Origin: a virus
IMG/VR virus record: IMGVR_UViG_3300000116_000276
Span: 115 to 21,955 of that record
Strand: one strand, 5' to 3'
DNA length: 21,841 nucleotides
Below the pieces are notes generated by a model that had not been told where the DNA came from, did not search any database, and saw only the letters and a list, made by a program, of their open reading frames with translations. The position numbers were made by a program, and so were the translations under genes. Each line of letters opens with the position of its first letter. The first letter of the stretch is position 1. Of this stretch, positions 2,463-21,841 are shown piece by piece.

Positions 2463-3428
2463 ATGACAAAAATTTTATGTTCAGCAGACTGGCATATCAA
2501 TCTACATAAGAAAAAAGTTCCATACGATTGGCAGACTGGAAGATTTCGTGAAATGTTTCGGAAACTGATCGCTTTAGAACAACGCGTGGATGTGCATGTG
2601 ATAGCTGGTGACATCTTTGATAAAAAACCAGAACCAGATGAAATCTCACTGTTTTTGAGCTATATCAATTCAGTCACTATCCCCACTCTCATCATCCCCG
2701 GCAACCATGAAGCAACACGCAAAGGAGAAACATTCTTTGAACATCTTACCGAAAAAAACGCTATCAAGAATCCGAGTGTGGAGGTATTTACTAGAAACGG
2801 ACGTAAGACTGTGGGTCAAACGTCATTTCAGCTATTCCCGTATGGAGAAATGCAAACAAACAATCTACCAGCCTATGTTGAGGGTGACATCTTGGTCACA
2901 CACATCAGGGGAGAAGTTCCGCCGCATATTACACCGGAATATGATTTCTCCAATCTCTCCCCTTGGGGCTTATGTCTACTTGGCGATCTACACTTTAATC
3001 ATCGTTATGGTGACACTAATTGCTACTATCCTGGTTCCCCACTTAATACAACTTTTGACCGAGACGACAAGCGAGAGTATGGAGTTGATATCTATGAGGT
3101 CGTAGACTCTCACAACTACACTCGTGAGTTTTACAATTTAGATCTTCCAAAACTGCTTCGTCGCACAATTAAAGCAGGAGATGAAATGCGCTCTGACTCT
3201 CGTCATCACGTGGTATACGAAGTGACAGGTAACATTGATCAGCTATCAAAGATTGGTCGTACTGAACTGTTAGATAAAAAAGTAGTTGAAAAACCTAATG
3301 AAGACGTAACTCTTGATTTGAAGAACAAAACAATCTACGAAGAACTTGAGATCTATCTTAATCATATCAAAGTAGCTGATACTGATACAGTGCTTAAACA
3401 GTTTAAAGACCTTGGAGTCTCTTCGTGA
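2463..3428 (+). CDS. 47: SbcD/Mre11-type exonuclease subunit (T4 gp47-like)
   Basis: This 321-residue calcineurin-like metallophosphoesterase is the nuclease half of an SbcCD/gp46-47 complex, which processes double-strand ends for recombination-dependent replication. All metal-binding motifs are visible: D9 and H11 (SADWH), GDIFD at 50-54, GNHE at 81-84, THIRG with H148, and GDLHFNH with H178 and H181, then a GSP loop at 192-194. Length is close to T4 gp47. The start has GAGGAA about 6 nt before the ATG. The stop overlaps the next gene by 4 nt (GTGA). The partner gp46 gene lies one gene downstream, separated by a PP-loop gene. The first 750 bases are about 43-45% GC in the segments I counted, against about 32% at the 3' end and in gp46, suggesting recombination mosaicism. 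Confidence 0.92.
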   Translation: MTKILCSADWHINLHKKKVPYDWQTGRFREMFRKLIALEQRVDVHVIAGDIFDKKPEPDEISLFLSYINSVTIPTLIIPGNHEATRKGETFFEHLTEKNAIKNPSVEVFTRNGRKTVGQTSFQLFPYGEMQTNNLPAYVEGDILVTHIRGEVPPHITPEYDFSNLSPWGLCLLGDLHFNHRYGDTNCYYPGSPLNTTFDRDDKREYGVDIYEVVDSHNYTREFYNLDLPKLLRRTIKAGDEMRSDSRHHVVYEVTGNIDQLSKIGRTELLDKKVVEKPNEDVTLDLKNKTIYEELEIYLNHIKVADTDTVLKQFKDLGVSS

Positions 3429-4345
3429 GTTTAGACTTATCTTTAAACCGTGTTTACTGGGAGTATGTACAGAACCGTTCTTGGATGCGTCCTGATAAAT
3501 ACGAAACTTCTCAGGTATGCCCTTCTTTAGGAGTTCGTTGTACAACTCCTATGTACTATAGACGTGGTAAGTCATTTTATAATGATTTAAAAATATTGGT
3601 TGAACAGTTTCATAAACGTTATGGAGAAACTCACCGATACGTGTTAACTCTCTCTGGAGGAATAGATTCAGAAGTGACTGCAGAGATGTTTTATCAGTTA
3701 GGAATTCCTTTTCGTACCGTCTCACAAAGACTTCTTGGAGGCATAAATGACGATGACCTAAAGTATGCTTTTGAGTGGGTTAAAGAAAGAGCAGTTGAGC
3801 ACGAAGTAGTAGAGTTAAACAGAGATCAGTTTGTATCTGAAACTATACCTGAAGGAGTTAAGCTAGGGCAGTTTACTCACTCTTACTCACAAATTGCCCA
3901 TACTAACATGTTTCATCATGTAGATGACGATGAAATTTTAATATTTTCTGGTCATAATCCTGACTGGCATAATGGAGTTGGTATTGGATGGTGGGAAGAT
4001 TCTCCTAATTTAGTAAAGTATGCTATCAATGCTAATAAACTGTTCTTTACCTTTACATCTCTTGAGCCTATCTTTTGTCACTATGCTGCAAACTATGATG
4101 CGAAACAACCTGGAGATAAAAACAATGATTTTTTGTATGAAGCATTTCCTCACCTACCTCGTAGAATCAAACTAACAGGTTGGGAAAATGGATATAATCA
4201 TGCAGGAATTATTAGAGATAAAATAAGAGCTACCCACAACTATACTAGACAAAGTTTTATAACATGGGACACATTTACTCTTCAGTACATTAGAAAAGAG
4301 TACTATAAAAATAACCAACATGATGAAAGGTTAATCAAACTATGA
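3425..4345 (+). CDS. PP-loop (N-type) ATP-pyrophosphatase superfamily protein
   Basis: The protein carries the ATP-binding PP-loop signature SGGIDSE (77-83) after a hydrophobic strand (YVLTL). That is the hallmark of N-type ATP pyrophosphatases such as asparagine synthetase B, NAD synthetase, GMP synthetase and QueC, which activate a carbonyl or carboxyl group by adenylation. A second conserved-looking stretch is IFSGHNPDWHNGVGIGWW (about 177-194). The C-terminal Cys cluster that binds zinc in QueC is absent, so a preQ0 synthase is unlikely. There is no glutamine amidotransferase domain. It starts at GTG overlapping the gp47 stop by 4 nt and ends overlapping the gp46 start by 4 nt, so it is locked into translation of the recombination nuclease. 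The substrate is unknown; nucleotide, RNA or peptide modification are possible. Confidence 0.75.
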   Translation: MSLDLSLNRVYWEYVQNRSWMRPDKYETSQVCPSLGVRCTTPMYYRRGKSFYNDLKILVEQFHKRYGETHRYVLTLSGGIDSEVTAEMFYQLGIPFRTVSQRLLGGINDDDLKYAFEWVKERAVEHEVVELNRDQFVSETIPEGVKLGQFTHSYSQIAHTNMFHHVDDDEILIFSGHNPDWHNGVGIGWWEDSPNLVKYAINANKLFFTFTSLEPIFCHYAANYDAKQPGDKNNDFLYEAFPHLPRRIKLTGWENGYNHAGIIRDKIRATHNYTRQSFITWDTFTLQYIRKEYYKNNQHDERLIKL

Positions 4346-13572: not shown

Positions 13573-14230
13573 ATTAATATCTTACTCAAAACCAGTTGAT
13601 ATGATTGGAGTAGATAATGCAGAAGATCTAGTTGCTTATTGTGCTAGGGTTTCTAACCCTGATAATCAAATGAGTACTGAAACTTCAGAGAAACTATTAA
13701 AATACTTAATAAGAGAAAATCACTGGTCACCGTTTGAAATGGTTTCAGTGTGTATGGAAATTGAAACTACACGAGATATAGCTCGTCAGATTCTAAGACA
13801 CAGATCTTTCTCTTTTCAAGAGTTTTCTCAGAGATACGCTAATCCTGAAGATTCTTTAGGTTGGACTAATCGAGAAGCCAGACTTCAAGATAAACAAAAT
13901 CGCCAAAATTCAATAGACACTGAAGATGACGAACTACAGCACGATTGGTTGATAAAACAAGATAAAGTAAAATTAGCATCTATTCAAGCCTATAATTGGG
14001 CACTAGAAATGGGTATAGCTAAAGAACAAGCTCGTGCAGTACTTCCAGAAGGTATGATGAGATCACGACTCTATATGAACGGTACTCTGCGATCTTGGTT
14101 ACATTATATCGACTTACGATCAGCACACGGAACACAAAAAGAACATATTGAAATTGCTAAAGAGTGCGGTGTTGAGATTGGAAAAATATTTCCTTTTGCA
14201 GAGCGTTGGTTTAATCCTAGTGGTAAATGA
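13562..14230 (+). CDS. thyX: Flavin-dependent thymidylate synthase
   Basis: ThyX makes dTMP from dUMP using FAD, NADPH and methylene-tetrahydrofolate. The signature RHRx7S is present as RHRSFSFQEFS (79-89), followed by QRY. LPEGMMRSRLYMNGTLRSW and the HGTQKEHIEIAKE helix complete the nucleotide and FAD site. Length (222 residues) is usual for the family. The frame is open from 13550, but ATG 13562 has GGAG 6 nt upstream and gives a clean MKVRLISYSKP start; it overlaps the previous gene by 11 nt. The stop overlaps the next ATG as ATGA. With NrdAB and MazG-like proteins it completes a dNTP supply set. Confidence 0.95.
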   Translation: MKVRLISYSKPVDMIGVDNAEDLVAYCARVSNPDNQMSTETSEKLLKYLIRENHWSPFEMVSVCMEIETTRDIARQILRHRSFSFQEFSQRYANPEDSLGWTNREARLQDKQNRQNSIDTEDDELQHDWLIKQDKVKLASIQAYNWALEMGIAKEQARAVLPEGMMRSRLYMNGTLRSWLHYIDLRSAHGTQKEHIEIAKECGVEIGKIFPFAERWFNPSGK

Positions 14231-15339
14231 TTGCTTTTTTAACCCAGTATATCTATGGACTAGGTCATAGTAATAGAATTAAGCTAATAGCAGAAGAAAC
14301 TGCTAAACTTACTGATGTACTAATAATAAACCAGTTATTTAAACCTCCTTTAGACTTTAGTGTGCCACAAGTATCTTTTTTGGAAAACTCTAAACCCCCA
14401 AAAGGAACAGCCTTATCGAGTTATGTTCAAAATGAAAACATAATAAACTTTAGAATATCAAAATTCATTGAAACACTAGATAAATATAAAATAAAAGTAT
14501 TAGTCAGTGAAGGTTTTCCTTTTTGTAGACACCAATACTCTCATGAGTTATTTAAATGCTTTGAAGAGTGCAAAAAAAGGGGAATTAAAATTGTAATATC
14601 TATAAGAGATTTTCCATGGGATGATCCACACGAAAATCAACTAAAAGACTGGGTTAACTATACGCAAAATATTGTTTGTAAATATTATGCAGATAAAATA
14701 CTAGTTCACGGCGATCCTAATATACTTCCCCTATATAGTGATAGAACGGTTAGAGGGAATCCAAAAATAATTATAGATGAGATTAAAGATTTAATATCTT
14801 ATACTGGTTATGTATGTGATGATTCTTTAAAACCACACAAACAAAGAAATAATCATATATATGTATCTACAGGGTTAAATAAAAATGAAGGACTACTACT
14901 TTTTAAAGAAGTAACTAAAATAGCACATAAGTTTACTGACTATAAATTTATTATGCCTATGGCTAATAGGTATAACCAATTAGGAGCTAAAAGTAAGGGA
15001 AATATGTTATTTGTTGACTATATACCTAATTTAGCAAAAAAACTTGAAAAGTGTTCTGGAATAATTACTTATGGTGGTTATAATACAACTGTAGAAATTT
15101 TAAAAACTGGAGTTCCTGCAGTAGTAGTACCTAGACAAGATGGACAAAAAATAGAACAATTTGTACGTGCCTATGTATTTGAGCCTTATGAGTATTTCAA
15201 AGTTATTAATAATCAAGAGTTTAGTAAGCTAGAAGAGATGCTTTCTTCTATTCTTACTTCTAAACCTAGAAAGTTTGAGTTTAATTTAGATGGAACAAAA
15301 AGATCAGCAAGAGAAATCTTTGCTATTTTTAAAAGCTAG
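14227..15339 (+). CDS. GT-B-fold glycosyltransferase (UGT/MurG-like)
   Basis: This 370-residue protein has two Rossmann-like halves. The N-terminal half begins IAFLTQYIYGLGHSNRI, where GLGHSNR (11-17) matches the glycine-rich acceptor-side loop of MurG-like enzymes. The C-terminal half has YVSTG, then GIITYGGYNTTVEILKTG (about 278-295) and PAVVVPR, the donor-binding region of GT28/GT1 families. It would transfer a sugar from a nucleotide donor; the acceptor is unknown. The start overlaps thyX by 4 nt. Segments counted are as low as 22% GC, comparable to the SGNH-like gene, so both may come from a similar source. The 3' end overlaps the next gene by 50 nt. Overall pattern resembles a predicted bacterial glycosyltransferase group (COG4671-like), from memory only. 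Confidence 0.75.
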   Translation: MIAFLTQYIYGLGHSNRIKLIAEETAKLTDVLIINQLFKPPLDFSVPQVSFLENSKPPKGTALSSYVQNENIINFRISKFIETLDKYKIKVLVSEGFPFCRHQYSHELFKCFEECKKRGIKIVISIRDFPWDDPHENQLKDWVNYTQNIVCKYYADKILVHGDPNILPLYSDRTVRGNPKIIIDEIKDLISYTGYVCDDSLKPHKQRNNHIYVSTGLNKNEGLLLFKEVTKIAHKFTDYKFIMPMANRYNQLGAKSKGNMLFVDYIPNLAKKLEKCSGIITYGGYNTTVEILKTGVPAVVVPRQDGQKIEQFVRAYVFEPYEYFKVINNQEFSKLEEMLSSILTSKPRKFEFNLDGTKRSAREIFAIFKS

Positions 15340-15847: not shown

Positions 15848-15955
15848 TTTATAAATATTTTTTAATGGTATCACTTCTCGCGTTTTATAACGCTTTTTTT
15901 GTTTCTTATTTTTAGGTTTTGGCATTGAACGCTGAAATACTTCAGGTACAATCAT
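15836..15955 (-). CDS. Small basic protein, 39 residues
   Basis: An uninterrupted 40-codon frame begins with ATG overlapping the stop of the 66-codon gene as ATGA (15955-15952) and ends with TAA at 15838-15836. The product starts MIVPEVFQRSMPKPKNKKQK and has 13 Lys/Arg in 39 residues, no Cys, and no membrane segment. The four-base overlap and its place just before the - strand terminator argue that it is a translated last gene of the late block. Its codons include the whole hairpin of the + strand terminator and it overlaps the end of the last + gene by 12 nt. No function is recognised; nucleic-acid or capsid-interior binding is a guess from charge. Chance open frame remains possible. Confidence 0.6.
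   Translation of the reverse strand: MIVPEVFQRSMPKPKNKKQKKRYKTREVIPLKNIYKSLR
15880..15900 (+). terminator. Rho-independent terminator for the + strand block
   Basis: GCGTT (15880-15884), a TTAT loop and AACGC (15889-15893) form a short stem followed directly by seven T (15894-15900). It lies 33 nt past the stop of the last + gene, where the long + transcript should end, and inside the - strand 39-codon gene. Confidence 0.85.
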
Positions 15956-16456: not shown

Positions 16457-17095
16457 TTAAGAAATCAGTGCAAGAACTGTTTCTGTCATGTTACCTGCGT
16501 TAGCACCGCCAGATGTGGAAGCACGTACAGTAACTGTGTGAGCTGGATCACCGTTTAATGTGCTATCTCCAACTGTGTAGTATGCGTTTGAACCAGTGTT
16601 CAGAGCTGAGAAATTAATCTCTGAGTTAGCGTTTGATACGATAGCACGATCAACGCCTGAAGCATCACACCACCACATTTCAACACCGTTAGTACCGGCA
16701 GCTGCGTGTGATGTTAGGTTAGCTTGTTGATTAACTCCAAAATCTGAATTTGTAAATACACAATTCTCAAACTTGAGCGTCACTGCTGTATTACCAAGTT
16801 TGGATACACAAGATGTTCCGCCAGCAGCTGTTGCTGAAGAACCTTGAAAAGTAATATTCTTAAATACGATTGAACCTGTTGATCCGTCTGCAAAACTCAT
16901 ATCACCACTAATGATGATTTCATCTGCATCACCCATGCCAACATAAGCATAATCAGATGCTACAACACCTGTAGGTGCTGTATATGTACCTGGGTACATG
17001 TGTACTTCATTACCGCCTTGCGTTAGAGCAGCGGTTGGAATGTCGGAAATATCAGCTGGAAAGCCGTCATGTCCTCTTTTATCTACTATAGCCAT
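16457..17095 (-). CDS. Putative virion protein with a right-handed beta-helix
   Basis: This 212-residue protein resembles pectate-lyase or pectinesterase-like beta-helices. VHMYPGTYTAPTG (about 32-44) is the typical entry segment, followed by YVGMGDADEIIISGD, GSIVFKNITFQG and LKFENCVFTNSDFG. These short strand-turn rungs with Asn and Gly at turns occur in tail spikes and capsid decoration proteins. It is rich in Ala, Gly, Ser, Thr and Val with few charges, as virion proteins tend to be. No catalytic residues are evident, so a structural role is more likely than an enzyme. It has the best promoter in the window (17129-17157) and AAGGAG about 8 nt before the ATG, suggesting high expression as a decoration or spike protein. 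Confidence 0.6.
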   Translation of the reverse strand: MAIVDKRGHDGFPADISDIPTAALTQGGNEVHMYPGTYTAPTGVVASDYAYVGMGDADEIIISGDMSFADGSTGSIVFKNITFQGSSATAAGGTSCVSKLGNTAVTLKFENCVFTNSDFGVNQQANLTSHAAAGTNGVEMWWCDASGVDRAIVSNANSEINFSALNTGSNAYYTVGDSTLNGDPAHTVTVRASTSGGANAGNMTETVLALIS

Positions 17096-17128: not shown

Positions 17129-17157
17129 ATTATCACAAACAACCGTTTATATGTCAA
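17129..17157 (-). promoter_or_regulatory. Near-consensus sigma70 promoter driving the beta-helix gene
   Basis: On the - strand TTGACA (17157-17152) is followed by exactly 17 bp and GATAAT (17134-17129), eleven of twelve consensus bases. Transcription would start near 17122, about 27 nt before the ATG. GTTTGT (17114-17119) and ACAAAC (17135-17140) form a 6-bp inverted repeat straddling the -10 element, a possible operator. Confidence 0.75.
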
Positions 17158-17160
17158 TTT

Positions 17161-17367
17161 TTATTTTTTACGTTTTGAAAGAGGTTTACCAGCCGCACGG
17201 AGAGCTATAGCTACCGCTTGACGACGTTGTGCCTCTTTCTGCGTAGTACCCATACGTTTGGCCAAGGTGCGCACGCCTTTAGCACGAGCTTTTGAAGGTT
17301 TTTTCATTAGCTCCTTAATATTTGTTGAAATAGTTTTTTTAGACTTGCCACGTTTAAGAGGCATCAC
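17161..17367 (-). CDS. Small basic protein, 68 residues (DUF6496-like)
   Basis: The product begins MMPLKRGKSKKTISTNIKEL and has about 23 Lys/Arg in 68 residues. The ending segment RRQAVAIALRAAGKPLSKRKK has the QAVAIAL..AGK pattern I associate with a family of short phage and bacterial proteins annotated DUF6496; this is from memory and unverified. No catalytic motif is visible. DNA binding or capsid-interior packing would fit the charge but is inferred. The start overlaps the end of the 209-codon gene by 14 nt (or 11 nt from the second Met). It is the last gene before the internal promoter. Confidence 0.7.
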   Translation of the reverse strand: MMPLKRGKSKKTISTNIKELMKKPSKARAKGVRTLAKRMGTTQKEAQRRQAVAIALRAAGKPLSKRKK

Positions 17368-17983
17368 GCATCATCTTTGCTGATGGAGGAAGCATATCAT
17401 CCTCAGCTAATTCTTTAATTTTTGCCATATGAACATCTTCTACGTAAGAATGTTCTTCTTCAAGATTCATTTCACGTGCAAGACTCATGATCATATCAGC
17501 GTAGTGTTGAGCTTTTTCTACCATGTCTGAATCTGCATTGTCCATAGCAATTGCTTGTTTTTCTAACTTGAAAAGCATATCTTGTAACATCATAGATTCT
17601 ACAACAAGATGAACCATGTCAGTTTTAGATTCAATATCTGAGTAGAGAGCTTGAGCTGATGGACAAATATCAAAGTGACGAGTTGTATAATCACCCTTGC
17701 TAATTTGCCCAGATGAAGTCATCTCTTCCATATCATCATTCTTCATATTGTCATCATCATCCATCTCTTCACGAGGCTCTTGCATTGGAGAGTCAGAATA
17801 CACTAAGTAGTCACGAGCACTATTCATATATGCTGAACATTTTGCGAGTTTATTAGTCCACCAAGTTGGAAGCGGAGCTTCCATATCACGGGGTAATGCG
17901 TCTAAAATGTCATTTGCATCTTCGATGATCGTTTTACACATTCTACGTGAAGAAGATACATCGGTATGTCCGTCTTTTCTCAT
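17354..17983 (-). CDS. Conserved-type phage hypothetical protein, 209 residues
   Basis: A helical, acidic protein. The N-terminus (about 1-65) has a Cys-containing helix CKTIIEDANDILDALP and LPTWWTNKLAKCSAYMNSARDYL, a pattern I recall in hypothetical phage proteins encoded among structural genes. An acidic, probably disordered linker (EEMDDDDNMKNDDMEEM, about 72-88) follows, then Met-rich helices. No enzymatic motif is visible. It starts at an ATGA overlap with the 70-codon gene and its end overlaps the 68-codon gene. The N-terminal WW..K..C region may bind a virion or host partner; that is speculation. Coding status is secure from length, overlaps and composition. Confidence 0.75.
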   Translation of the reverse strand: MRKDGHTDVSSSRRMCKTIIEDANDILDALPRDMEAPLPTWWTNKLAKCSAYMNSARDYLVYSDSPMQEPREEMDDDDNMKNDDMEEMTSSGQISKGDYTTRHFDICPSAQALYSDIESKTDMVHLVVESMMLQDMLFKLEKQAIAMDNADSDMVEKAQHYADMIMSLAREMNLEEEHSYVEDVHMAKIKELAEDDMLPPSAKMMRDAS

Positions 17984-18192
17984 TTGCGTTTCCTTTTAAA
18001 TCCGATTGGTTTAGAATATTTTATAGGATATCCTAAATTACGTTCTTTTTCTATAAATTTTTCAAGTGTAGGATAACTTAATTTTCCGCGAGTGGCAAGT
18101 TTTCTAATCTTCTCATTCTTGCGAATGCCCTGATTAGGAAATCTTAAAAATTTAAATTTTCCTACTTTGCTTATAATATTAGGTTTTTTCAT
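17980..18192 (-). CDS. Small very basic protein, 70 residues
   Basis: About 23 of 70 residues are Lys or Arg and the protein ends KPIGFKRKRK. There are aromatic and Gly/Pro residues but no Cys and no recognised domain. The composition suggests nucleic-acid or ribosome binding. It lies directly after the radical SAM gene, whose TAA overlaps its ATG (TAATG) with CAGGAG just upstream, and it overlaps the next gene by 4 nt. Because it is coupled to the radical SAM gene, it is worth considering as a substrate, though it lacks Cys. Confidence 0.7.
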   Translation of the reverse strand: MKKPNIISKVGKFKFLRFPNQGIRKNEKIRKLATRGKLSYPTLEKFIEKERNLGYPIKYSKPIGFKRKRK

Positions 18193-19175
18193 TAGTTCTC
18201 CTGAGTGTTAAAATTAACATTCTCTATATTACCTGTCTTAAGATTTTCTTCTCTTTTCTCAATAGATGATACAATTTTACCACACTGAGATTTACATAGT
18301 TTAAATGAACGTTCATAGCCTTGCAGATATTGTTGCAACTTTGTCCAGTAATTATACGATATTATTTTTTGAAGAGGAACTTCAAAACCGTTAAACATAC
18401 GTTCAAACTGAGGAGGATAGTAGAATTTATCGTTCTGTTGATCATAATAATGCCCACCAGTCCAACAACATCTAAATACTAAACCGTCAGGAGCAATATA
18501 CCATTTACCCCAATCATCCCAAACACAATGAATCTTCTTTTCTGCTTGTACATATTCTTTAGTCTTTTTAGAGTGAACGAACTGACCTGTTTTAGGAGCA
18601 AAAACATCGCGGGAAGTTTTAACAGTAGAAAAAGTAGTAAATCCTGACTTCTTAGCAAGTTCTCGTGCTTCGTTTACCTGATGCTTATTATGCTCAAAAA
18701 CAATATATTTCCAATGAACCTGTGACTGACTAGTTGCAATTACAGATTTTGCATTAGATAATACAGTTTCAAACTCTGTGTTAATGCGATATTTAGAATG
18801 AGTATCCCACAAACCGTCTAAGTCAAAATTAATTATATCTTGATCAGTTAAAATGTTGCCTACATCAGTCCAATATGAATGATCGTGGATTCCACCATTA
18901 GTATGAATTTTAAGCCGAGTTCCCTGAGATTTTACATATGAAATTATCTCTCTAAACTGTTTATTCATTATAGAGTCACCAAAATTACCGTTTAACATTA
19001 GCCACTCTACGTTTTGGAGAAGCTCTGGATTAAACAATTGTTGGAACCGTTCAAGTGAAATTGTGTAACGTGCATCATTTAAATTAACGCGAAGAGGTTT
19101 CCAACGATGGCATGCAGGACACTTTGCGTTACAGCGAAATGTTAGTTCAGTAGTAAGTTGTCTGATAGATCTCAT
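18192..19175 (-). CDS. Radical SAM enzyme with SPASM/twitch-like C-terminal cluster
   Basis: The canonical 4Fe-4S motif CxxxCxxC is present as CNAKCPAC (C15, C19, C22), followed by LNGNFGDSI (61-69) in place of the usual GGEP SAM-binding segment and KIHTNGG (89-95). The C-terminus has C217, then 13 residues, G231, four residues and C236, fitting the SPASM start CX9-15GX4C, with C294 and C298 as further ligands. These suggest one auxiliary cluster, as in enzymes that modify peptides or oxidise alcohols. At 327 residues it is full length. It starts with a TAATG overlap with the coiled-coil tail-fibre gene, so it is made together with a virion protein. The substrate is unknown; a virion protein or a small neighbouring peptide are candidates. 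Confidence 0.85.
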   Translation of the reverse strand: MRSIRQLTTELTFRCNAKCPACHRWKPLRVNLNDARYTISLERFQQLFNPELLQNVEWLMLNGNFGDSIMNKQFREIISYVKSQGTRLKIHTNGGIHDHSYWTDVGNILTDQDIINFDLDGLWDTHSKYRINTEFETVLSNAKSVIATSQSQVHWKYIVFEHNKHQVNEARELAKKSGFTTFSTVKTSRDVFAPKTGQFVHSKKTKEYVQAEKKIHCVWDDWGKWYIAPDGLVFRCCWTGGHYYDQQNDKFYYPPQFERMFNGFEVPLQKIISYNYWTKLQQYLQGYERSFKLCKSQCGKIVSSIEKREENLKTGNIENVNFNTQEN

Positions 19176-20725
19176 TATGGAGCAAGTGAAGTAATTGAAA
19201 CTATTATGCCAGAGGGGATAGTGGCATCTACAAACTGAACCGTATCATTTGAATAGTTACCAACCCAGTCGATCGTAGGATGCTGACGAACACCATCAAG
19301 AGTGACGACAAGAACATTTGAATCATTAGCACAATCTGTCCCAATGAAAAATACATTTGATGTACCAAGAGCTGAGTTAACATTTGTAAAAGGTACTAGA
19401 AGAGTAGCTCCACCAGTTAAAGCTGTCACGTTATCTTGTACAATATTAACATTATCAGTGACGGTATTGATATTATCTGTAGTTGAATTTAGATTAGCGT
19501 TAAGACGGGTATAGGTTACATAGTCGTTAGCCATAACCCCAATACCTGCAATATTAGCATCAAAAGCCATACTTACAGAATTAGCAAATACCTCTCCGTT
19601 ATCACGAATAGAGAAAATAGCAGTTTCACGAGTAGAAGCGCTTAAATCTGCTACGTCATTGAATACGCCTATATATGCATTAGGATCGTCACCGTTGTTG
19701 TTTTTATCAATTAAGAAAAAGATAGAGTTAACAGACTCCATAGAAATAGAATTAATAACATCAGCTTCTTCATCAACATCTAAATCAATAGCATTTCGGT
19801 CGCCAGCAGCGTTTGGATTACCAGTTAACCTACCGTCATTTAAAACAAGATTAGCCGAAGCGTCTAGATTAGCTACTTCTGTACCACCAACCACAAACTT
19901 AATATGAGAGTTTGTTGTATCAATGATAATACCTGTGGATTCGTCGTTAACATGACCAAAATGAACTACATTAAAATCCATAGATTGATGTACATGAAAA
20001 GCATTAGCGTGTACATCAATGTACTCTTGAATTGCAATAGTAGCATTGTCGTGAGGAGATTGTGTTGTTGCAAAAACGATTGCATCTTCACCGATATGAT
20101 CACCAATAAATACGTTGCCCTCATCACCACGATTAATGATAATACCAGAGTCTGTCGCAGGAACACCTGTTAAGTTAGCCGATACCACAATAAAGTTATC
20201 ATCAATTGTAGCTGTACCCACTCCCAAGTCAACTTGAGAACCAACAACAATTAAGTTACCTTGGATAGTGACATTTTGTTGAAATATCTTAGCAGAACTA
20301 AATTGTGTATCACCACTTATTATTCCTGTCACATTTGCTTGAGTTGCTACTACATTATCTTGTACAGAGTTAACATTACCGACAGTAGTTAAAAGATTAG
20401 CTGAAACTGATGCCACATTATCTTGTACATCATCAATGTACCCTGTTACTGTGGTAAAATCAGCATATACATTAGTCTGAACTGTGTCTACATTATCAGT
20501 AACAGTATTCACACCAGTAGTAAGTGTGTTTACATTACTTTGTACTATATCTAAATTAGCATTTACTCGTATTTCTACTGCAGCAGCATTAGCTGATTCC
20601 ACAAATAAATCAGTAGTAATCGCACCAGGTTGAATATGGCGTGTTTGTATGATACTGTTCTGAAGTAAATCAGACGTAATTACGTTTGAACTAATTACAC
20701 TAGTAGTAACGCGAGTAAGGGACAT
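19175..20725 (-). CDS. Tail fibre protein with trimeric coiled-coil repeats
   Basis: This 516-residue protein is built like a phage tail fibre. The N-terminus (about 1-55) contains TSDLLQNSIIQTRHIQPGAI, a common attachment-type segment of such proteins. Coiled-coil blocks with Val/Leu heptads follow at about 57-135 (repeated VQxNV separated by 21, 18 and 21 residues). A beta-rich shaft comes next (QGNLIVVGS, IINRGDEGNVFIGDHIG, LNDGRLTG), then a second coiled-coil block at about 406-435 (TVTDNVNIVQDNV). The C-terminal domain (about 445-516) contains VVTLDGVRQHP and IVSITSLAP. No chaperone or collar domain is seen here. It follows the acidic-protein gene and is coupled to the radical SAM gene by a TAATG overlap. 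Confidence 0.8.
   Translation of the reverse strand: MSLTRVTTSVISSNVITSDLLQNSIIQTRHIQPGAITTDLFVESANAAAVEIRVNANLDIVQSNVNTLTTGVNTVTDNVDTVQTNVYADFTTVTGYIDDVQDNVASVSANLLTTVGNVNSVQDNVVATQANVTGIISGDTQFSSAKIFQQNVTIQGNLIVVGSQVDLGVGTATIDDNFIVVSANLTGVPATDSGIIINRGDEGNVFIGDHIGEDAIVFATTQSPHDNATIAIQEYIDVHANAFHVHQSMDFNVVHFGHVNDESTGIIIDTTNSHIKFVVGGTEVANLDASANLVLNDGRLTGNPNAAGDRNAIDLDVDEEADVINSISMESVNSIFFLIDKNNNGDDPNAYIGVFNDVADLSASTRETAIFSIRDNGEVFANSVSMAFDANIAGIGVMANDYVTYTRLNANLNSTTDNINTVTDNVNIVQDNVTALTGGATLLVPFTNVNSALGTSNVFFIGTDCANDSNVLVVTLDGVRQHPTIDWVGNYSNDTVQFVDATIPSGIIVSITSLAP
20352..20429 (-). repeat. 63-nt-period repeat in the tail-fibre coiled coil
   Basis: The 15-mer ACATTATCTTGTACA (+ strand orientation) is at 20352-20366 and 20415-20429, exactly 63 nt apart, with a one-mismatch copy at 19428-19442. 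Each encodes VQDNV. The 63-nt period equals three heptads, matching coiled-coil growth by internal duplication. Confidence 0.65.
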
Positions 20726-21228
20726 TATTTCTCCACTTCGTCAGAGTCTTCTTCAAGTTCTGCGAAAAATTCAGCTAAAAAGTCTTTTTGTTCTAAAGGT
20801 TTTTCATTATCTAAATCATTAAAATCTGAAAGAGGGTCTTCGTCTCCCTCAAAGAATTCTTTAATAAAATCTTCTACCTGTTGATCTACAGATGGCGGAG
20901 CTAACAACTCGTCATACTTTTCTTCTAAACATACGGTTTTAGCAAGAGTAGTTAAAAACTCTACAGCTTCTTCAGAGAGTTCTCCAGTAGTAAAACCGTC
21001 TTCTGAAATTTGGTTTACGGTTACTGTTTTTTTAATTTCAAGATAAGCATTATCTGTATCACCTGCAACAAAGTCTAACAATCTAGGCTCATGTTCTGCA
21101 ATTAGATCTAAAGGAAAATGACGTGCAAGTAAAGGAGCTCTTTTTCCTTTGTCATAATCTTTTATAGCAAAATATGCAAAAGGATCTTCTCCACGTTCTG
21201 CGATATTTACTTTAACATAGTAATTCAT
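20725..21228 (-). CDS. Hypothetical acidic protein, 167 residues
   Basis: The first 60 residues are mixed (MNYYVKVNIAERGEDPFAYF) and may form a small beta domain. The C-terminal third is strongly acidic (EFFEGDEDPLSDFNDLD and AELEEDSDEVEK) and likely disordered or helical. There is no recognised domain, signal peptide or membrane segment. GGAGATTTTTAA precedes the ATG, giving a workable ribosome binding site. The start of the tail-fibre gene overlaps its stop (1 nt). Sitting between two fibre genes, it could be a fibre assembly factor or chaperone; this is context inference only. Confidence 0.7.
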   Translation of the reverse strand: MNYYVKVNIAERGEDPFAYFAIKDYDKGKRAPLLARHFPLDLIAEHEPRLLDFVAGDTDNAYLEIKKTVTVNQISEDGFTTGELSEEAVEFLTTLAKTVCLEEKYDELLAPPSVDQQVEDFIKEFFEGDEDPLSDFNDLDNEKPLEQKDFLAEFFAELEEDSDEVEK

Positions 21229-21241
21229 TTAAAAATCTCCA

Positions 21242-21841
21242 TTAAGTTTTAATAATATAGTTAACAACAGAAGAAGGAACTGTTATAGAATGAGTGTGTG
21301 CTGCCTGAGTTACTGAATTTACTACTGTAGTAGAGGTTGAATCTTTTGCTGTTGCAGCAACAGATGTTGTACCTACCGTTAGATCTCCATCACCGTCTGA
21401 AGCTGTTGTTAAAATAGAACTAGCACTCACAGAACCTGTTTCAGCTCCTAATGTGCTATTATTAGTTCCTTTGCCTAGAGGGAATCTATCTCTTAAATCA
21501 GGTAGTCCAAACGTAGTAGAGCCATCACCAACACCATAACTAGTGCCCGCAATTGCAAATAGAGAGGCATACGTAGTTCTATTAATATCAGAACCATCAC
21601 ACAGTAACCATCCCGTTGGAGCTGTAGAACCACTCCACATAATAACAGACCCTGCAGGTAGTAGAGGTGCTGGTGACGAATCAGGGTCATTTTCTATTGA
21701 GTTTTGACTTAAGGTAGCTGCAGCTAGGTTGGCATAGTTGCCTGGAGTTTTCATCACATGCATGCCGTTTAGAGACGAAGTAGCAGCTGCATCAGTTCTG
21801 TGAACTATAGCTACATTTCCGTTATTTAAGGTACCTAATCC
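21242..21841 (-). CDS. Tail fibre with phage tail collar domain (5' end outside window)
   Basis: The frame is open to the right edge, so the 199 visible residues are the C-terminal part; the ATG at 21763 is internal. Visible sequence starts GLGTLNNGNVAIVHRTDAAA. A phage tail collar domain follows: PAGSVIMWSGSTAPTGWLLCDG, then YASLFAIAGTSYGVGDGSTTF and LPDLRDRFPLGKG, the well-known signature of distal tail-fibre proteins. The last 70 residues are Ser/Thr/Val-rich and end TQAAHTHSITVPSSVVNYIIKT, with the HTH segment typical of such tips. It would sit at a fibre tip and touch the host surface. The stop is 13 nt before the acidic-protein start. Confidence 0.88.
   Translation of the reverse strand, partial: GLGTLNNGNVAIVHRTDAAATSSLNGMHVMKTPGNYANLAAATLSQNSIENDPDSSPAPLLPAGSVIMWSGSTAPTGWLLCDGSDINRTTYASLFAIAGTSYGVGDGSTTFGLPDLRDRFPLGKGTNNSTLGAETGSVSASSILTTASDGDGDLTVGTTSVAATAKDSTSTTVVNSVTQAAHTHSITVPSSVVNYIIKT

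Follow-up and report, generated by a model that had tools for sequence, protein, structure and literature searches.

A gene for a predicted radical SAM/Twitch enzyme in the tail-tip operon of uncultivated marine siphoviruses

Genes of the tail-tip operon and their junctions

The gene encoding the putative radical SAM enzyme (here denoted F1) is located at 18192..19175 on the minus strand of the window, the whole stretch of 21,841 nucleotides that was analysed. It lies within an operon whose gene order is near-identical across relatives: a J-like protein (F5), a Collar protein (F2), F3, F0, F1, F6, F4, F8, F7, F14 and F10, after which, in the relatives' loci, come DNA metabolism genes in the opposite orientation. 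The window, in which these operon genes are all on the minus strand, holds the C-terminal part of F2 with its Phage Tail Collar domain (21242..21841; PF07484, E 4.1e-25), followed by F3, of 167 amino acids (20725..21228), and F0, of 516 amino acids (19175..20725). Downstream of F1 are F6, a basic protein of 70 amino acids (17980..18192), F4, of 209 amino acids with a conserved N-terminus (KDGHTDV...LPTWWTNKLA) and a variable middle (17354..17983), F8, a small, basic, conserved protein (17161..17367; phrog_2423), and F7, of 212 amino acids (16457..17095), which served as a bait independent of the radical SAM gene. Two loci (L055:3510-4277 and L099/L238) carry an extra gene of 243-255 amino acids between F1 and F4, without a Pfam match.

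Longer relatives encode a terminase, a major tail protein, a tape measure protein and a lambda-J-like central tail fibre. This tail gene set indicates a siphovirus, and the lineage carrying F1 is an uncultivated marine one. A DNA-level search of phage records detected no relatives, F7 matched none of 50,697 phage records, and the matches of F1 in phage records reached only ~23% identity, with no close isolate. The replication genes of the window include an SbcCD/gp46-47 type pair, whose gp46 has its nearest counterpart in T5-like phages (34%). The DNA metabolism genes also include an asparagine-synthase-like gene (3425-4345), an Anp1-like gene (phrog_1574; 1486-2295) and a GT28-like glycosyltransferase gene (14227-15339).

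F0 had been labelled a tail fibre in an earlier note on this DNA. The window protein itself has no significant family match and a search against 50,697 phage records returned nothing, but its position after the lambda-J-like and Collar-domain proteins, together with matches of phrog_16122 ('virion structural protein') to three of its sister proteins (up to 1.9e-40), supports a more cautious description as a fibre-like virion protein. It is hypervariable: across relatives its length ranges from 163 to 1090 amino acids, and 119 of 148 copies are free of Cys and 115 of 148 free of Trp. The part common to the clades is mainly an N-terminal anchor, conserved along with Asn-rich heptads, in which Asn positions are 90-97% conserved. 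In one clade (L034/L043) the C-terminal domain of F0 is replaced while F1 is retained. We also noticed repeated Asn-Val heptads in F0 of the window and its relatives, a pattern that suggests a trimeric coiled-coil stalk whose core contains Asn.

The junction of F0 and F1 reads TAATG, the ATG of F1 having one base, A, in common with the upstream TAA. The overlap between the fibre-gene stop and the F1 start that the earlier note described is therefore present, and it is exactly 1 nt in 70 of 80 relatives. F6 likewise starts in a TAATG at the F1 stop, as described before, and F0 is joined in the same way to F3. In relatives, start/stop overlaps are also found at F1/F6, F6/F4 and F4/F8. Because other junctions of the operon overlap too, we rejected the overlap as a special sign of pairing between F0 and F1; TAATG coupling is operon-wide. 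F1 is probably made together with the tail-tip and fibre proteins through translational coupling, and its membership in the operon would make it a late-expressed gene. A sigma-70 and terminator scan of the region detected no clear promoter at F1. The site that most resembles a promoter in this region (TTGACA-17-GATAAT, preceded by TG) lies at 17129-17157 on the minus strand, in the gap between F8 and F7 and upstream of F7, and a hairpin followed by a T run, resembling a terminator, was found at 15880-15893, between two convergent gene blocks.

Cysteine motifs and predicted fold of F1

F1 is an intact ORF of 327 amino acids. It contains CxxxCxxC (C15/C19/C22, residues 15-22), the motif of the radical SAM superfamily for the SAM-binding [4Fe-4S] cluster, and, towards the C-terminus, C217-X13-G231-X4-C236 followed by C294-X3-C298, as well as C237. 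A scan of viral contigs found 132 relatives, of which 80 were kept; in the 78 that were sufficiently complete (identity down to 73%) all eight cysteines are invariant. In 105 distant viral homologues C15, C19, C22 and C236 are conserved in 100%, C217 in 94%, C237 in 90% and C294/C298 in 97%. F1 matches the phrog_21308 'radical SAM' profile at E 7.8e-29. Its score against Pfam Radical_SAM is below threshold (19.1 bits, cut-off 29.5), many NCBIfam radical SAM models match it weakly, none reaching its cut-off, and N_Twi_rSAM (NF033640) gave no match at E 0.1.

These data bear out the earlier description of a well-formed radical SAM protein with an auxiliary cluster. The SPASM label given with it did not hold: a full SPASM domain has seven auxiliary cysteines and two clusters, and beyond the core motif F1 has only C217, C236, C237, C294 and C298. 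Its four-cysteine pattern (CX9-15GX4C plus a second cysteine pair) instead fits a Twitch domain, that is, a truncated SPASM with one auxiliary cluster. Very probably, F1 is an active radical SAM/Twitch enzyme, presumably with both clusters loaded.

Structure prediction with AlphaFold2 on a 69-row alignment yielded a model with a radical SAM domain and an auxiliary domain (pLDDT 86.8, pTM 0.87); it replaced a first model from a shallow alignment (pLDDT 65), in which the auxiliary domain was unresolved. The model contains a partial TIM barrel, and all its top PDB matches are radical SAM enzymes, although a PDB sequence search with the close F1 family found no real match. The best fold matches were SuiB (VIA Z 19.9; 262 residues aligned, 3.7 A) and SkfB (18.5; 245 residues, 3.5 A), followed by BlsE (18.2), DesII (17.5), ChlB (17.3), MoaA (17.2), anSME (17.1) and BtrN (15.8), rows no more than about one Z unit apart being counted as tied. 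BtrN, BlsE, anSME, SkfB, SuiB and MoaA (Z 15.8-19.9) share with F1 the partial TIM barrel and a C-terminal auxiliary-cluster domain, yet merely 11-21% sequence identity. The presence of SuiB, SkfB and anSME among the best matches agrees with the earlier assignment of F1 to a type known to modify peptides; given the tied rows, the fold fits peptide and small-molecule substrates alike. In contrast to SuiB and SkfB, F1 has no fused N-terminal RRE, the leader-binding domain of RiPP maturases: its residue 1-2 aligns at residue 104 of SuiB, and with SkfB the alignment runs from residue 96 onward.

A scan of cellular genome contigs with two patterns detected one weak F1 homologue, in Vibrio; on the basis of this two-pattern scan, F1 may still be of cellular origin.

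F1 is a fixed gene of the tail-tip operon

The first set of loci had been selected by F1 itself, and the linkage searches were therefore repeated with the F7 bait and an F2 alignment as selectors. F1 was present in 25 of 25 F7-selected loci with upstream sequence (F7 identity down to 25%). Among newly fetched F2-selected loci it was the next gene in all 39 that continue past F0, the other 30 stopping within or before F0. The sets partly overlap, and because some contigs recur between them these loci are not all independent. F1 is in single copy on each of the 14 contigs tested (26-63 kb). Together these data demonstrate that F1 belongs to the fixed core of the tail-tip operon in this marine siphovirus lineage and that its linkage to the fibre gene, the co-occurrence that the earlier note proposed to analyse, is lineage-wide. 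We found no description of this F0-F1 arrangement in the open-access literature.

On a common set of loci the median pairwise identity was 77% for F1, 76% for the replication exonuclease and 42% for F0, and dN/dS was 0.02-0.065 for F1 (informative pairs) versus 0.07-0.52 for F0. F1 is thus under purifying selection and conserved like the replication exonuclease. Conservation of F1 beside a hypervariable F0 suggests a conserved substrate and speaks against the variable fibre body.

Phage radical SAM genes are usually classed as auxiliary metabolic cargo. F1 acts like a core gene of the structural module: it is in single copy, it is under purifying selection and no loss was seen beside the hypervariable fibre. 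This behaviour makes it a testable case in which phages may use radical chemistry to alter proteins of the virion, or else a host target late in infection, and its relatives form a tractable family of uncharacterised enzymes.

Distant homologues and candidate substrates of F1

A scan with the pattern DGLxDTNxxYR recovered at least 120 additional stretches of viral DNA, most of them with homologues that have the F1 cysteine set. The phrog_21308 profile matches 68 of 69 superfamily members and N_Twi_rSAM matches 52 of the 69 below E 0.001; in the 69-row tree F1 is a clade of its own (100/100, branch length 1.55). As judged from sequence, F1 is a distinct clade within a viral radical SAM/Twitch superfamily that is both large and uncharacterised. 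The phrog_21308 members of Campylobacter phages CP220/F379 and Pelagibacter phage Mosig EXVC030M have the motifs GNxGD, DGLxDTxxxYR and HN.HQ as in F1, and nearly all aligned distant homologues of this family have its CX13GX4C...CX3C-type Twitch cysteines. These relatives are only 23-35% identical to F1, however, and sit in replication or metabolic/radical SAM clusters, whereas F1 is beside the fibre. Of 115 immediate neighbours of distant homologues 32 match Radical_SAM; others are DNA primase/helicase, SbcCD and short-chain dehydrogenase genes, with an epimerase or a sulfotransferase gene in single cases. The 25 neighbour families seen most often include no tail genes. In the Mosig island the homologue lies alongside aminotransferase and carbamoyltransferase genes, and in the CP220-type cluster it occurs with an amidinotransferase (PMC2853527). 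These non-fibre contexts make the fibre-linked F1 clade the exception in the superfamily. The earlier note had named homologues consistently found away from fibre genes and linked to nucleotide or sugar metabolism as evidence against a role linked to the virion; the distant homologues do lie away from fibre genes, and the close lineage has F1 beside F0 in every locus that could be tested. In 56 loci (L107-L226) we noticed a second radical SAM gene (CALPF...CCD, N-terminal Twitch-like) at most four genes away. At locus L240:3247-4252 the radical SAM ORF is broken into 246 and 94 amino acids in overlapping frames, by a frameshift or an assembly error.

Our tentative first choice among the mechanisms is that F1 is a late enzyme modifying a conserved virion or tail-tip protein. 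F1 would use SAM and two [4Fe-4S] clusters, the SAM cluster and an auxiliary one, and would carry out a radical modification on a conserved protein segment of the virion tail tip. Candidate targets would be the fibre's invariant N-terminal anchor and conserved neighbours such as F4, F8, F3 or the J-like protein. The operon is structural in the relatives' contigs, which encode the J-like tip protein, the Collar protein, the tape measure and the major tail protein; that the substrate is a protein, and what its modification is and serves, are inferred. We regard it as possible, with greater reserve, that the dedicated enzyme installs its modification on the virion as an obligatory step of assembly or adsorption. 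In the open-access literature searched, no case of a radical SAM enzyme modifying a virion was found.

Following closely, and nearly as plausible, is a late auxiliary function in which F1 would take a glycan, a sugar, a nucleotide sugar or some other small molecule as its substrate and would either alter the host surface (superinfection exclusion, or receptor masking at lysis) or produce a modified sugar; the place beside the fibre would then simply be the host-interaction locus. The sugar, nucleotide and cofactor enzymes BlsE, BtrN, DesII and MoaA rank high among the fold matches, and the genes that accompany distant homologues include glycosyltransferase-like, carbamoyltransferase/aminotransferase, epimerase and N-Twitch-like radical SAM genes; the window itself encodes the GT28-like and Anp1-like proteins. 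Strong conservation of F1 beside a hypervariable F0 would also fit a conserved small substrate. Marine T4-like phages carry many radical SAM genes (PMC5332604, PMC7029224), pelagimyophages are reported to have radical SAM cassettes within the host recognition cluster, and metabolic genes are known to insert in tail-fibre regions (PMC7029224). However, the radical SAM genes of marine T4-like phages and CP220 (PMC7029224, PMC5332604, PMC2853527), some of them in a host recognition island, are variable and often multi-copy cargo, whereas F1 belongs, in single copy, to the core of a siphovirus tail operon and always lies inside this structural operon, to which it is coupled. Moreover, none of the relatives has a recognisable sugar gene linked to F1 inside the operon, where the 243-255-amino-acid gene of two loci is the sole insertion.

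Modification of the variable fibre body, for instance of conserved Asn residues in the coiled-coil heptads or of the receptor-binding head, would explain why the F0-F1 linkage is absolute and could draw on the conserved Asn positions of the N-terminal region. F0 evolves fast, varies several-fold in length, is mostly Cys-free and has its C-terminal domain swapped in a clade that keeps F1, which makes the fibre body an unlikely substrate.

Least probable is a RiPP-like maturation, by F1, of F6 or of another small protein from the operon: F6 lies next to F1, is coupled to it and is conserved (median identity 78%), and SuiB, SkfB and ChlB are fold neighbours of RiPP or peptide type, but F6, found in 48 relatives, is absent from at least 17 F1-bearing loci with readable downstream DNA and so is not an obligate partner, it has no Cys or Trp and no visible leader/core layout, and F1 has no fused RRE. 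We accordingly rejected the dispensable F6 as the obligate substrate, a role the earlier note had considered for a small basic protein; the small ORF next to F1 is too inconstant for a linked precursor peptide, and a RiPP-type precursor may lie elsewhere in the genome.

In the wider superfamily, a family of 74-amino-acid proteins without a Pfam match (L146:1841-2065) was observed near the radical SAM gene on 18 contigs, often immediately upstream of it, and is a possible substrate or partner of the superfamily enzyme.
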